This document shows positions 10,153 to 27,179 of a stretch of 38,241 nucleotides of DNA, one piece after another. How positions within the stretch are numbered: the stretch's first letter is position 1; each line of letters starts with the position of its first letter. Source of the DNA: Actinomycetota bacterium (lineage in GTDB: Bacteria > Actinomycetota > Acidimicrobiia > Acidimicrobiales > Acidimicrobiaceae); NCBI GenBank assembly GCA_027320695.1, contig DAHVKW010000005.1, positions 1 through 38,241 of the forward strand. Reading direction: 5' to 3'. Position numbers and translations under genes: made by a program. The notes below the pieces were generated by a model. It was not told the origin of the DNA. It saw only the letters and a program-made list of their open reading frames with translations, and made no database searches.

Positions 10153-10180
10153 TTGTTGGCGCTGCCTAGAATGTTAATAT
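10153..10180 (+). promoter_or_regulatory. Candidate sigma70-type promoter for sufB (TTGTTG-16 nt-TAATAT)
   Basis: Consensus-like -35/-10 spacing, about 50 nt upstream of sufB ATG. Confidence 0.35.
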
Positions 10181-10230
10181 TCGAATCATTCAGCAAGGTG
10201 TTCTACGTAGGTTCTGAAGGCGGATCGATT

Positions 10231-11631
10231 ATGTCTACAGCTGATCTAGATCTTGGTAAATATCAACTCGGTTGGGCTGATGTCGAAGACTATGTCTTCA
10301 AACCGAAGAAGGGACTCAACCAAGAGATTGTAAAAGAAATGTCCTGGATGAAGGGCGAGCCTGAGTGGATGAGAGAGTTCAGGCTGCGCTCTCTGCGTTA
10401 CTTTGAGAAGAAACCTATGCTCCCATGGTTCGCAGTGAACATGCCAGACATCGATTTTAACGACATTTTTTACTACATCAAGCCAACTGAGAAGCAGGTT
10501 AGTTCTTGGGATCAATTGCCGGAGTCGGTAAAGCGGACCTATGAAAAGCTGGGAATTCCTGAGGCGGAACGCAAATATCTCTCTGGAGTGACAGCACAGT
10601 ATGAGTCAGAGGTGGTCTATCACAAGAACAGGGAAGACCTCGAGGCGCAAGGTGTCATATTTACTGACATGGACACCGCTCTCAGGGAGTATCCAGAAAT
10701 AGTGCGTGCCTATTTCGGGACGATTATTCCTCCCAACGACAACAAGTTCGCTGCCCTCAATAGTGCCGTCTGGTCCGGCGGATCATTTATTTACGTCCCG
10801 CCAGGCGTCAAGGTCGAGATGCCATTGCAGGCGTACTTTAGAATCAATGCAGAGAACATGGGTCAGTTCGAGCGGACGTTGATCATCGCCGATGAGGGAT
10901 CCCAGGTGCATTACATCGAAGGTTGTTCCGCGCCGGTGTACTCGACGGACTCGTTGCACTCTGCCGTTGTCGAACTAATTGCCAAGCCAGGCGCCAGAAT
11001 CACCTACACCACGATTCAGAACTGGTCCAATAACGTGTACAACCTCGTGACCAAGAGGGCCCGCGCCGAGGCAGAGGCCCGAGTGGAATGGATTGACGGC
11101 AACATTGGATCGCGATTGACTATGAAGTACCCTGCGGTTTACCTGGTCGGCCCCAAAGCGACAGGGGAAGTGCTATCCGTCGCATATGCGGGAAACGGAC
11201 AACATCAGGATGCGGGAGCCAAAATGGTCCATGCCGCCCCTGAGACAAGTTCAACCATCATTTCAAAGTCAATATCCAAAGATGGCGGCACATCCACCTA
11301 TCGTGGTTTAGTCCACGTCGACGAAGGAGCAAAGGGCTCGAAGAGTTTTGTCCGATGCGACGCTCTGCTGCTGGACGACTTCTCAATCTCTGAGACCAAG
11401 CCATATATGGAAGTCAATGAGCGTGATGCCCAGATCGGACATGAGGCGACTGTCTCAAAGATTGGCAACGATCAGCTATTCTACCTGATGTCTCGTGGTC
11501 TTTCGGAATCTCAGGCGATGAGCCTGATAGTGAACGGATTCATTGAGCCGGTAACCAGGACGCTTCCTATGGAATACGCGGTCGAGTGGAGCAGGCTGAT
11601 CGAGCTGCAAATGGATGGGTCTGTAGGCTAA
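10231..11631 (+). CDS. sufB: Fe-S cluster assembly protein SufB
   Basis: 466 aa from ATG 10231; [55 protein letters not shown]-terminal [28 protein letters not shown]. Confidence 0.97.
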
Positions 11632-17701: not shown

Positions 17702-17890
17702 ACTGCGACTATAGCGCTATTTTCTCAAGGATCTAATAACTTTATGATAAATGGGAGCTGGCAAATTGGATTTGTGAGCTAATGAAGGTATTTAATAACA
17801 TCTAGGTGTTAGAAATTCACCTTGCTACAGTAGAATTTATTTTTGAAATCTGAAAAACTTTTTACGTTTTGCGGCACCTAAGGAGTAACA

Positions 17891-19141
17891 ATTCAACTTT
17901 CAAGCACGTGGACTGAAAGTCTTGATAATTCTGTTTCAAACAGCGGACAGTCCCAACGTTTTAGCGATTTAAGGGCGCGTGTCGATTCGTTGGAGATGCC
18001 AACATCCGCTATTGAGGAATGGCGATACTCAGATATCGATGAACTCGACCTGTCGGATTATTCGGTTTTCGCTAAGACGGGAATTTCCAAAGAGGTGGAG
18101 TCCGCGCTGGCTGGTCCGATCTTGGAGGAGAACCGGAACGCCTTAATTATCAAGACGTACAATGGCATCATCGACCCTGGGTTTGCGCCGCCGAAGGGAA
18201 TCATCCTAGGCGCGACGGACCCAGAGGATATTTCACATGATTTTTCAGCTGCAGATGTATTTTCGTACTTAAATGCATTGCTTGCCAGTCCGGTTACGCT
18301 CACGATTGGCGCCGACTACGATTCAAGCCGACCTGTGGTTGTGATGAGATATCTTGACGCCAGCAAGACCGCTGTATTTCCAAATTTGTGTCTGAAGGTG
18401 GAATCCAACGCCAGTGCTCAGGTGGTCGAGATACTTGCTTCTCCGCCAGAATCGGATCTCCTGGCGATACCCGTCACCAAGATCTTTCAGGAAGCTGACT
18501 CTGAGCTCGAGTATCTGTTAGTCCAGGATCTGGGCCCAAGCTGCGAAATGATTGGGCATCAGGCTTCACGGCTCATGTCTCGGGCAAAATTGCGATCAAT
18601 GTCATTGGTTGCGGGAGGTAGTTACTCCCGTCTTTTTACTACCTCGACAATTGCGGGTCAAGGGGCAGATTCGAATCTTAATGCCGCATATTTTGGATCC
18701 CGTAATCAGGTTCTGGACTTCCGGACCCTTCAGGAACACAGTGCCAAGAATGGCCGGAGCGAGCTTTATTTCAAGGGCGCTGGAGCAAACGAGTCCCACC
18801 TTGTTTATTCGGGGCTCATCAAGGTTGACAAAGGTGCAACATCCACTGACGCCTTCCAAACGAATAAGAATCTGGTTCTGTCAGAGGGCGCCCGCGCAGA
18901 CTCGGTTCCTAATCTCGACATTCAGGAGAATGACGTAAGGTGCAGCCATGCTTCTTCGGTGGGTCCGATCGATGAGGACCAGCAGTATTATTTGGAAAGC
19001 CGCGGGATCAGGCCGGAAATTGTTCAAAGACTTATTGTCACTGGGTTTTTTGCCGAAATGGCCGACAGGTCAAAAATTGTCGGGGTAAGAAGCATTCTTG
19101 CGGCGCTGGCTGCGGGGAAGTGGAAGGAATTTCAGAAGTGA
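17891..19141 (+). CDS. sufD: Fe-S cluster assembly protein SufD; proposed ATT start at 17891 (ORF track starts at TTG 17990)
   Basis: SufD motifs LEMPTSAIEEWRYSDI, SHASSVGPIDEDQQYYLESRGI, IVQRLIVTGFFAEM. The frame stays open and homologous-looking upstream of 17990 (RFSDLRARVDSLEMPT); AAGGAG followed by TAACA then ATT. Confidence 0.88.
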   Translation: MQLSSTWTESLDNSVSNSGQSQRFSDLRARVDSLEMPTSAIEEWRYSDIDELDLSDYSVFAKTGISKEVESALAGPILEENRNALIIKTYNGIIDPGFAPPKGIILGATDPEDISHDFSAADVFSYLNALLASPVTLTIGADYDSSRPVVVMRYLDASKTAVFPNLCLKVESNASAQVVEILASPPESDLLAIPVTKIFQEADSELEYLLVQDLGPSCEMIGHQASRLMSRAKLRSMSLVAGGSYSRLFTTSTIAGQGADSNLNAAYFGSRNQVLDFRTLQEHSAKNGRSELYFKGAGANESHLVYSGLIKVDKGATSTDAFQTNKNLVLSEGARADSVPNLDIQENDVRCSHASSVGPIDEDQQYYLESRGIRPEIVQRLIVTGFFAEMADRSKIVGVRSILAALAAGKWKEFQK

Positions 19142-19455
19142 GTAAAACGGTTGACCTTTGCGCCAAGGATGAGTTGGAGAGCGGGTCCGTGCGGAAGTTT
19201 GTAGCGGACGGCCATGAGATAGCTGTGGTTCGTATCGAAGATGATTTTTACGCAATCGGCGACCGCTGCAGCCACGCAAATTATTCCCTTTCCGAGGGCG
19301 AGGTCATTCTGGAGGAAAAGGAGCTCGAGTGCTGGAAGCATGGCTCTACCTTTTCGCTCACAACTGGAAAGCCGACCTGCTTGCCAGCCACTAAAGCCGT
19401 GCCTGTTTACGATATTGCGATCGAGGGCGACAGAGTGTTGGTGGTGATAGATTGA
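19138..19455 (+). CDS. Rieske [2Fe-2S] ferredoxin-like protein
   Basis: 105 aa from GTG 19138 overlapping the sufD stop; CSHANYSLSEG...ELECWKHGSTF Rieske motifs. Confidence 0.9.
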   Translation: MSKTVDLCAKDELESGSVRKFVADGHEIAVVRIEDDFYAIGDRCSHANYSLSEGEVILEEKELECWKHGSTFSLTTGKPTCLPATKAVPVYDIAIEGDRVLVVID

Positions 19456-20237
19456 GCCAGGTTCATGTTTTGAGGATAGAGAATCTTCGCGCAAACGTTG
19501 GGCAGAAGGAAATTCTCCGAGGAATAGATCTTGAACTGAAAAGCGGAGAAGTCCATGCCATCATGGGCCCCAACGGTTCCGGAAAGTCTACGTTATCGCA
19601 CGTATTGATGGGGAAGCCGGGATATGAAGTCACTGGCGGTTCGATACACCTGGACGGTACCGATCTCTTATCTTTGTCCGCCTGGGAGAGGGCGCAGGCA
19701 GGGCTGTTTCTTGTTTCACAGTATCCGGTCGAAGTTCCGGGCGTGTCATTGGAGGAGGCACTGGATGCCGCTTTCGAGACCCAGTCCAGAGATTCGAGCA
19801 ATTTGCATCAAGATGTTTTGGCTGAGGCAAACCGTTTGGGATTTCCACTTGAACTCCTAGGACGGTCATTGAATGTCGATTTTTCCGGGGGCGAGAAAAA
19901 GCGTAATGAAATGGTCCAGCTCGCTGTGCTTAGGCCGAGGTTTGCAGTGCTCGATGAGATTGACTCAGGGCTGGACATAGATGCATTGAGAGATGTCTCA
20001 AAAAGGGTCGAGGAAGCCACCAATGACGACCAATTGGGAGTTTTGGCGATCACTCACTACTCAAGACTTTTGAAGGAACTCCGTCCTGATCGCGTGCACG
20101 TCCTGGTTCGTGGAGAGATCGTGACTTCCGGCGGGCCGGAGCTTGCCTCGCAGCTCGAAAAGACCGGATATGCCGAATTCGGTGTCGAGGAGCCGGTGGC
20201 GATGGATGGAACCGGCATTTTCCGCACTTCTCAATAA
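19452..20237 (+). CDS. sufC: Fe-S cluster assembly ATPase SufC (copy 1)
   Basis: 261 aa; AIMGPNGSGKSTLSHVLMG, NVDFSGGEKKRNEMVQLAVLRPRFAVLDEIDSGLDIDAL; TTG start overlaps the Rieske stop. Confidence 0.95.
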   Translation: MSQVHVLRIENLRANVGQKEILRGIDLELKSGEVHAIMGPNGSGKSTLSHVLMGKPGYEVTGGSIHLDGTDLLSLSAWERAQAGLFLVSQYPVEVPGVSLEEALDAAFETQSRDSSNLHQDVLAEANRLGFPLELLGRSLNVDFSGGEKKRNEMVQLAVLRPRFAVLDEIDSGLDIDALRDVSKRVEEATNDDQLGVLAITHYSRLLKELRPDRVHVLVRGEIVTSGGPELASQLEKTGYAEFGVEEPVAMDGTGIFRTSQ

Positions 20238-24693: not shown

Positions 24694-25164
24694 CTAGCTG
24701 GCCCTGTCTTCCAAGGCCTGAACAAGCGTGTTCCAGGACAGGGTGGCGCACTTTATTCTGACCGGAAATTTGACCACTCCTTGCAGTGCAATCAGTTCTC
24801 CGAGTTCCCTTTCGGAATACTCGACTGGATCGACTACTTCGGCTTCACCGCTGGAGTTTGTCGAAATCGACATCATTGATTTGAAGATCTTAAGCAGGCG
24901 ATCGACCTCTTGGAGGGTCTTGCCCTTTACGGCAACCGACATCAACGAAGCGGACGATCTCGATATTGAGCATCCTTGGCCAGTAATGCGAATATCTTTA
25001 ATCACGTCGCCTTCAAGCAGCAGGTATACAGTCAGCTCATCACCGCAAAGCGGATTGTGTCCTTCAGCCTTCAATGCGGGCGGCGTAGGAAATATGCCTT
25101 CATTTCGTGGGTTTTTGTAGTGATCGAGGATGATCTCCCTATAAAGGTCTTCTAGACCAGGCAT
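24694..25164 (-). CDS. sufU: Fe-S cluster scaffold/sulfur transfer protein SufU
   Basis: 156 aa; LYREIILDHYKNPRNEG, HNPLCGDELTVYL, GQGCSISRSSASLMSVAVKGK, RIKCATLSWNTL. Confidence 0.95.
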   Translation of the reverse strand: MPGLEDLYREIILDHYKNPRNEGIFPTPPALKAEGHNPLCGDELTVYLLLEGDVIKDIRITGQGCSISRSSASLMSVAVKGKTLQEVDRLLKIFKSMMSISTNSSGEAEVVDPVEYSERELGELIALQGVVKFPVRIKCATLSWNTLVQALEDRAS

Positions 25165-25182: not shown

Positions 25183-26445
25183 CTAGCCAAAAAATGCCCG
25201 AGCTTTTGCCAGGGCGTCCACAAGAGCGTCAACATCGCTCCGATCATTGTAGATATGAAACGATGCGCGAGCTGTTGCCGCGATGCCGAGGTGACGCATC
25301 AAAGGCTTCGCACAGTGGTGTCCGGCTCTTACGCATACTCCACTCTGGTCAAGAACTTGGGATATGTCGTGGGGATGAATATTTTTGAAGTCAAATGAAA
25401 TGACTCCTCCGCGGTCATTTACATTTCTGGGACCATGGATAACCAAGTCCTTCCCGAAATTCGACTCGAGTGATTCAAACGCGTACGAGAGAAGTTCGAG
25501 TTCGTGGTCTCTGATGGCGTCCATACCAAGATTTTCGAGGTAATCGACTGCTGCCGCTAAACCTATAGCCTCCGCAATCGGGGGCGTTCCAGCTTCGAAT
25601 TTCCACGGGAGTTCATTCGGCGTGAACCCGTCGAGCCTTACGTCAGTTATCATGTCTCCGCCACCCATGAAAGGCGGAAGGGACTCAAGAAGCTCGGATT
25701 TTCCCCAAAGCACGCCGATCCCCGTCGGACCCAGCATTTTGTGCCCGGTGAAAGCCAGAAAGTCGAGGCCAAGATCAGTAACGTTGGTGCTGAGGTGAGG
25801 AACGTACTGGGCGCCGTCGCCAATCGCGATAGCCCCATGCTCATGGGCCAGATCCGCCAATCGTCTTATCGGGTTGATTGTCCCCAAGACGTTCGAAGTC
25901 AAAGAAACACTTAGTATTTTTGCATTCTGCAGCAGTTCGTCGATGTTTTGCAGATCCAAGTAGCCGTTTTCATCGACCATAATGTAGCGGATCTCAATCC
26001 CGAACTGTTCTTTTGCCATTAGCCATGGCACCAGATTTGCGTGATGCTCCATTTCGGTGAGAACGACAACGTCTCCCTTTTTGAGGGTTCCACGGGTCAG
26101 CGAGTTGGATAAGAGATTGATGGACTCCGTCGCATTCTTTGTGAAAATGGTTTCGCGCGATGGGTTGGGCGCTCCGACAAAACGGCCAATTGTGGCGCGC
26201 GCTCCCTCGTAGAGCTCGGTTGCGTGCTCGGCAATGTGGTAGACACCCCGATGCACATTTGCATGCGTAGTGGAATAGTAGTGGTCCATTGCCTGGAGTA
26301 CCTGGACTGGTTTTTGGGAGGATGCCGCGGAGTCGAGGAAAAAGAGCTTCTTCCCATCATGTTGATTGAAGATGGGGAAATCTTTTCGGATCTCGCTCAC
26401 AATCAATGGCCTTGTTTTCACGCCGAGCGTATTCATTCTCTCCAT
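25183..26445 (-). CDS. sufS: Cysteine desulfurase SufS
   Basis: 420 aa; FLDSAASSQKP, HANVHRGVYHIAEHAT, FTGHKMLGPTGIGVLWG, VCVRAGHHCAKPLM. Confidence 0.96.
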   Translation of the reverse strand: MERMNTLGVKTRPLIVSEIRKDFPIFNQHDGKKLFFLDSAASSQKPVQVLQAMDHYYSTTHANVHRGVYHIAEHATELYEGARATIGRFVGAPNPSRETIFTKNATESINLLSNSLTRGTLKKGDVVVLTEMEHHANLVPWLMAKEQFGIEIRYIMVDENGYLDLQNIDELLQNAKILSVSLTSNVLGTINPIRRLADLAHEHGAIAIGDGAQYVPHLSTNVTDLGLDFLAFTGHKMLGPTGIGVLWGKSELLESLPPFMGGGDMITDVRLDGFTPNELPWKFEAGTPPIAEAIGLAAAVDYLENLGMDAIRDHELELLSYAFESLESNFGKDLVIHGPRNVNDRGGVISFDFKNIHPHDISQVLDQSGVCVRAGHHCAKPLMRHLGIAATARASFHIYNDRSDVDALVDALAKARAFFG

Positions 26446-27179
26446 CCCTCGTAACCCTCGGATTCTAGCTTTTCTGACAGCTCCATCCCGCCGGAGGCTA
26501 CGATCCTGCCATTTATCATAATGTGGACAAAATCAGGGGAAAGCTCGTCCAAGATGCGCTGATAGTGGGTTATCAAGACCACCCCGAGATCAGGATTTTC
26601 TTTACGAACTTCATTAACGCCTCGTGCAACCACTCGCAAAGCATCGATGTCAAGTCCGGAATCCGTCTCGTCTAAAATTGCCAACTCAGGCTCGAGCAGC
26701 GCCATTTGCAAAATCTCATTTCGCTTTTTCTCTCCTCCGGAGAAGCCTTCGTTAAGGTATCTTTGGGCAAACGAAGGGTCCATGCCAAGCTTTTGCATCC
26801 ATTCCATCATCGAGAACCGGATTTCAATCGCGGAGATATCCGCAGCCTTGCGTGCCGATACTGCTTGGCGCAGAAACTGAATGACCGAAACTCCTGCAAT
26901 CTCCTGAGGGTATTGGAATGCTAGAAAGATGCCTGCCTTGGCCCGGATATCAGTCGACCAGTCGGTTATGTCCTCGCCGTGAAAGAGGATTGAGCCAGAG
27001 GTAATTTGGTAATCCGGGTTTCCCAGCAAAGTGTTTGCAAGGGTTGATTTTCCTGAACCATTTGGACCCATGATTGCATGGACTTCTCCTTTGCCCACGG
27101 AAAGCGACAAACCTTTCAGGATCTGATGTTCCCCTGCAGCAACGAGCAGGTCCTTGATTTCAAAAAGAGAACGTTCCAT
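26433..27179 (-). CDS. sufC: Fe-S cluster assembly ATPase SufC (copy 2)
   Basis: 248 aa; AIMGPNGSGKSTLANTLLG, GFSGGEKKRNEILQMALLEPELAILDETDSGLDIDAL. Confidence 0.95.
   Translation of the reverse strand: MERSLFEIKDLLVAAGEHQILKGLSLSVGKGEVHAIMGPNGSGKSTLANTLLGNPDYQITSGSILFHGEDITDWSTDIRAKAGIFLAFQYPQEIAGVSVIQFLRQAVSARKAADISAIEIRFSMMEWMQKLGMDPSFAQRYLNEGFSGGEKKRNEILQMALLEPELAILDETDSGLDIDALRVVARGVNEVRKENPDLGVVLITHYQRILDELSPDFVHIMINGRIVASGGMELSEKLESEGYEGWRE

Follow-up and report, generated by a model that had tools for sequence, protein, structure and literature searches.

The locus considered here raises a simple question: at which codon does translation of its sufD gene begin? The gene lies in a stretch of 38,241 nucleotides, the whole of which was analysed and is called the window below, from an incomplete 1.9-Mb MAG of an uncultured acidimicrobial genus. 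A first-pass annotation had proposed that sufD starts at a non-canonical ATT codon. Its coordinates for the upstream TAA, the AAGGAG Shine-Dalgarno (SD) sequence, the ATT and a frame of 416 codons all match the sequence, as does its statement that no ATG, GTG, TTG or CTG occurs between TAA 17879 and TTG 17990. Read directly, positions 17879–17893 are TAA GGA GTA ACA ATT; the codons GGA, GTA and ACA thus separate the in-frame stop at 17879–17881 from the ATT, and the gap between AAGGAG and ATT is 5 nt. From ATT 17891 the frame runs to a TGA at 19139–19141, and the earliest in-frame ATG, GTG, TTG or CTG after the ATT is TTG 17990 (codon 34), followed by ATG 17996 (codon 36). The TTG at 17990 had been described as the annotated start, and a mechanical ATG/GTG/TTG rule does reproduce it, but it is simply the product of such a rule. 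The features of the locus are collected in Table 1.

Table 1. Features of the sufD locus, with positions in the window
Feature	Coordinates	Strand	Evidence or remark
Palindrome TAACATCTAGGTGTTA, candidate operator	17796..17811	.	Overlaps putative -35; function inferred
Putative promoter: -35 TTAGAA (17809-17814), 16-nt spacer, -10 TAGAAT (17831-17836)	17809..17836	+	Conserved block, 10-species alignment
Shine-Dalgarno AAGGAG	17880..17885	+	TAAGGAG in all 10 species, gap to ATT of 5 or 6 nt
ATT initiation codon of sufD	17891..17893	+	10/10 species; of 152 residue-invariant columns, one of the 2 with a single codon throughout
sufD CDS, 416 aa, SUFBD_core PF01458	17891..19141	+	Pfam, TIGR01981, AlphaFold/Foldseek
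N-terminal two-helix segment, residues 5-17 and 22-33	17903..17989	+	AlphaFold (predicted), dN/dS
Rieske [2Fe-2S] ferredoxin-like gene, GTG start in sufD stop (GTGA)	19138..19455	+	PF00355, E 9.4e-19
sufC, TTG start in Rieske stop (TTGA)	19452..20237	+	TIGR01978, 287.5 bits, above cut-off (match 19455-20234)

Comparison of the window with nine further MAGs gave ten species of the genus, with SufD proteins that are 61–86% identical. In every one of them sufD opens with this ATT, preceded by the same TAAGGAG; the gap is 5 nt in six of the species and 6 nt in the other four. An in-frame stop lies 1–21 codons upstream of the ATT (1–9 codons in nine of the ten), and no species has a usable ATG, GTG, TTG or CTG between that stop and the ATT. 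L057 alone carries an in-frame TTG upstream, ten codons from the ATT and without an SD, and the other nine are clean. Where the gap is 6 nt, the frame upstream of the ATT is shifted relative to the SD: in L051 and L052 it is closed by a TGA two codons before the ATT, and in the other species of this kind by a TAA, TGA or TAG further up. Because the upstream frame thus differs relative to the SD, a single upstream start shared by all ten species is excluded.

The codon itself is as constant as its position. Across the ten species, 152 columns of SufD are invariant in residue (Met and Trp excluded), and only two of these use an identical codon throughout, one being the initiating ATT; 150 of the 151 others vary in codon. 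All eight of the other invariant Ile columns mix codons, and the ratio of ATT:ATC:ATA among Ile codons in these SufD sequences is 102:101:51. An ordinary internal Ile codon would be expected to drift among ATT, ATC and ATA, so the invariance of codon 1 points to a start codon. Since the ten species are related, these statistics count retention of the ATT and not independent origins. In the other sampled genera of the family (f1), sufD starts with ATG, GTG or TTG, which makes the ATT a genus-level trait. Considering the SD-ATT arrangement in all ten species and the invariance of codon 1, the original proposal is supported, and sufD in this genus almost certainly initiates at ATT 17891.

Why the ATT has been kept is a separate matter. 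It may have been fixed once in the genus, and the codon test speaks to its retention against turnover rather than proving a regulatory role. Conceivably, the start has no regulatory meaning at all, a strong SD making AUU good enough and drift having fixed it in the ancestor of the genus. Such an account would fit the confinement of ATT to this genus among the sampled members of the family, as well as the very strong SD, with which close spacing and an AUU could simply be tolerated. However, the one-base back-mutation to ATG, which would normally be favoured, is seen in none of the ten lineages, while the start column of the neighbouring Rieske gene has swapped freely among GTG, TTG and ATG in relatives. 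Moreover, distant families carry another weak sufD start, CTG. Neutral fixation is therefore rather unlikely, and with good confidence we take the best overall explanation to be an AUU start placed by a strong SD, with the weak codon kept by selection.

An internal start is far less probable. Here, TTG 17990 or ATG 17996 would be the true start of a SufD of 383 or 381 aa, respectively, and the open frame upstream would be a coincidence. An ATG does occur at the MPT position in all ten species, and a mechanical gene call does yield the TTG. Nevertheless, ATG 17996 sits within an LPT/MPT motif that is conserved across SufD and lacks a usable SD, as the GGAG directly abuts it; in addition, an internal start would leave the invariant SD without a purpose. 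The intervening codons also argue against it. By comparison among the species, codons 2–33 evolve as coding sequence under purifying selection at the protein level, and dN/dS, computed for seven species pairs, stays below 1 in each (dN 0.08 and dS 0.80 against the nearest species). In an AlphaFold model built from the window sequence and relatives (mean pLDDT 88.8), this segment is predicted to fold as two helices (pLDDT 81–86), neither of which a protein starting at TTG 17990 or ATG 17996 would retain.

The identity of the protein accords with the longer form. The product of 17891..19141 is closer to SufD than to SufB: it matches PF01458 with an E of 1.4e-61 (208.4 bits, cut-off 27) and scores 212.9 bits against the sufD model TIGR01981, just below the cut-off of 222, and 84.5 bits against the sufB model. 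The best Foldseek matches of the AlphaFold model were to E. coli SufD, with a TM of 0.85 over about 415 columns, that is, at full length. When the sequences are aligned, the shared (L/M)PT motif is preceded by 39 residues in E. coli SufD and by 34 here. The first-pass annotation had considered that orthologs might start at the LEMPT position; the constraint on codons 2–33, the two predicted helices and the long E. coli N-terminus all indicate that they do not.

A frameshift error of sequencing or assembly, concealing a normal ATG or GTG start, can for practical purposes be set aside. A GTG at 17908 does lie out of the sufD frame, as had been pointed out, but the ATT frame and its coding pattern recur in ten independent assemblies; codons 1–14 contain no indel, and the distance to the SD differs by a single base. 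Initiation upstream in another frame, followed by programmed frameshifting into that of sufD, has next to no probability, for although some species have an out-of-frame ATG or TTG 16–31 nt upstream, these codons are unconserved and lie in differing frames, no conserved slippery motif is present and the SD points at the ATT. Comparison between species shows three things: where sufD starts, that its ATT stays constant as a codon, and that codons 2–33 are coding.

By what means could an ATT start act at this locus? In the mechanism that we propose, AUU 17891 would be positioned by the invariant strong SD UAAGGAG 5–6 nt away and decoded by the initiator tRNA as fMet. The third position of AUU mismatches the initiator anticodon, such that a low rate of initiation would be expected, with IF3 discriminating against the codon as it does in infC, and selection would have retained the weak AUU within the genus. 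We lean towards weak or IF3-sensitive initiation as the selected role of the ATT; sensitivity of sufD to IF3 is suggested by analogy with infC, Streptomyces sigR and S. aureus cvfC1.

The arrangement of the neighbouring genes bears on how far such an effect might reach. A SufB homolog is encoded separately at 10153–11628. A second sufC-like ATPase gene occurs at 26436–27179, on the strand opposite to the sufD operon, beside sufS-like (25186–26445) and sufU-like (24697–25164) genes; these three were named from sequence, and family models were applied only to the first sufC. Within the operon, the starts of the Rieske gene and of sufC each overlap the stop of the gene before (NTGA), which suggests translational coupling, and the TTGA overlap of Rieske and sufC recurs in most relatives. 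Both genes are thus probably coupled to the gene before them, and by virtue of these overlaps the ATT could well set the output of the whole operon. The single weak codon would then cap sufD-Rieske-sufC output relative to sufB and the second sufC/sufS/sufU cluster (24.7–27.2 kb), although for gating on this operon-wide scale we see the case as evenly balanced. The first-pass annotation had suggested that the ATT could tune the level of SufD against those of SufC and the Rieske protein. The idea of tuning is kept, but in modified form, as the NTGA-coupled genes make an operon-wide level the likelier target.

Transcriptional control probably exists as well, considering that a palindrome conserved in most of the genus lies over the putative -35 element. 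The palindrome (TAACA-N6-TGTTA) occurs once in the window and may bind a regulator. Both of its arms are kept in seven of the ten species, while the right arm is TGGTA in L055 and L057, and the left arm is missing from L058. The putative promoter was not scored by a generic σ70 promoter scan, and conservation is the basis on which it is proposed. A structured or riboswitch-like leader was considered and rejected, given that the 5′ leader folds no better than shuffled sequences (z 0.54); an Rfam search of the sufD leader returned only a chance match, at 13.1 bits where the gathering score is 117.

The sufD gene appears to be weakly initiated well beyond the genus with ATT. The 5′ ends of sufD were surveyed in about 100 members of the order, 77 of which could be anchored at a GPxW motif. 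In the start column, 13 residues before the anchor, these 77 sequences have CTG in 32, GTG in nine, TTG in seven and ATG in two, and CTC, CTT, CTA and TTA in none; in a control Leu column two residues before the anchor, the counts are CTG 38, CTC 21, CTT 5, TTG 5 and CTA 2. In sixteen of the CTG cases, from 11 families (f3, f9, f10, f14, f16, f22, f29, f43, f44, f46 and f53), a stop closes the frame upstream and no in-frame ATG, GTG or TTG precedes the domain. It is the 32 CTGs among 77, with sixteen lacking an alternative, that suggest weak sufD initiation across a wider range than the genus. CTG is the apparent start in L015, L016, L018, L020, L022, L026, L096, L107, L109, L120, L121, L148, L152, L153, L163 and others, and SD-like GAGG or GGAGG sequences are found at the right distance from most of the CTGs in the survey. 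Very probably, then, sufD starts with CUG in many families of the order, and with GUG, UUG or AUG in others. The CTG calls rest on the position of the motif and on absent alternatives, and each is weaker than the case for ATT in the genus.

In two members of the order, the start column offers no well-placed NTG. The sequence of L102 is GGGAGGATGCT GTC ACG, where a GTC start is possible, and that of L103 is GGGAGGGCCC ATC TTC, where an ATC start is possible. The gene after sufD has ordinary starts in members of the order, as judged by eye. A strict Rieske-motif search in these relatives gave no match, the pattern being too narrow, and the NTGA overlap there was likewise judged by eye.

Taken at its broadest, the comparison raises the idea that Fe-S assembly is throttled at one step in much of the order by selection of a non-canonical codon at the start of sufD (AUU here, CUG for many families and perhaps GUC or AUC for single species), which would couple Fe-S biogenesis to IF3 or to initiation stringency via the coupled sufD-Rieske-sufC operon. 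We offer this tentatively, as a possibility somewhat short of an even chance. The order-wide CTG pattern does suggest that weak sufD initiation could be a selected control point in Fe-S assembly.

To our knowledge, very few bacterial genes have conserved AUU starts, and gene callers limited to ATG, GTG and TTG miss them. The order-wide CTG pattern suggests, in addition, that many genomes of the order probably carry a wrongly annotated SufD N-terminus. On the present comparison sufD joins this small class, with support that is unusually good for comparative evidence, and it belongs to a core metabolic system, being neither a translation factor nor a regulator. The open-access literature searched yielded no earlier description of a non-canonical start for sufD.

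Known systems offer several points of comparison. The sufD of E. coli has a canonical start codon. Its product (PDB 1vh4, 2zu0, 5awf) matches the fold of the present protein over the full length, with a TM of about 0.85, at an identity of only 23%. A parallel in codon is infC, which has a conserved AUH start (AUU, AUC or AUA) behind a strong SD. The start codon of infC forms part of a loop by which IF3 regulates itself, but SufD is a scaffold protein for Fe-S clusters, and any effect of IF3 on it would be one-way. On the criteria used for sufD, the infC of the same genus apparently starts at ATA (GAAGGAGTGATGCCGAATAGTC), as seen in L076, L083, L071, L073, L074, L080, L081, L082 and L089, and would thus provide a precedent within the genus for the ATT of sufD. 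A short ATG reading frame overlaps this infC start in another frame, and other members of the order have ATC or ATA there.

Streptomyces sigR starts at GTC, is repressed by IF3 and shows increased output when the codon is made canonical (PMC5472188). Much like sufD, it is an actinobacterial gene that heads an operon and combines a conserved non-canonical start with a strong RBS, and the next gene overlaps its stop (ATGA) (PMC5472188). The gene and the codon differ, and both the effect and the IF3 dependence were measured for sigR, while the sufD case is known from sequence. In S. aureus, the AUU of cvfC1 and the AUA of ccpN lower reporter output (PMC13009471). These genes belong to another phylum, and their starts were mapped experimentally, whereas that of sufD was located by comparison; nonetheless, they share with sufD a conserved AUU or AUA behind a strong SD, in the first gene of an operon (cvfC1) or in a regulator (PMC13009471).
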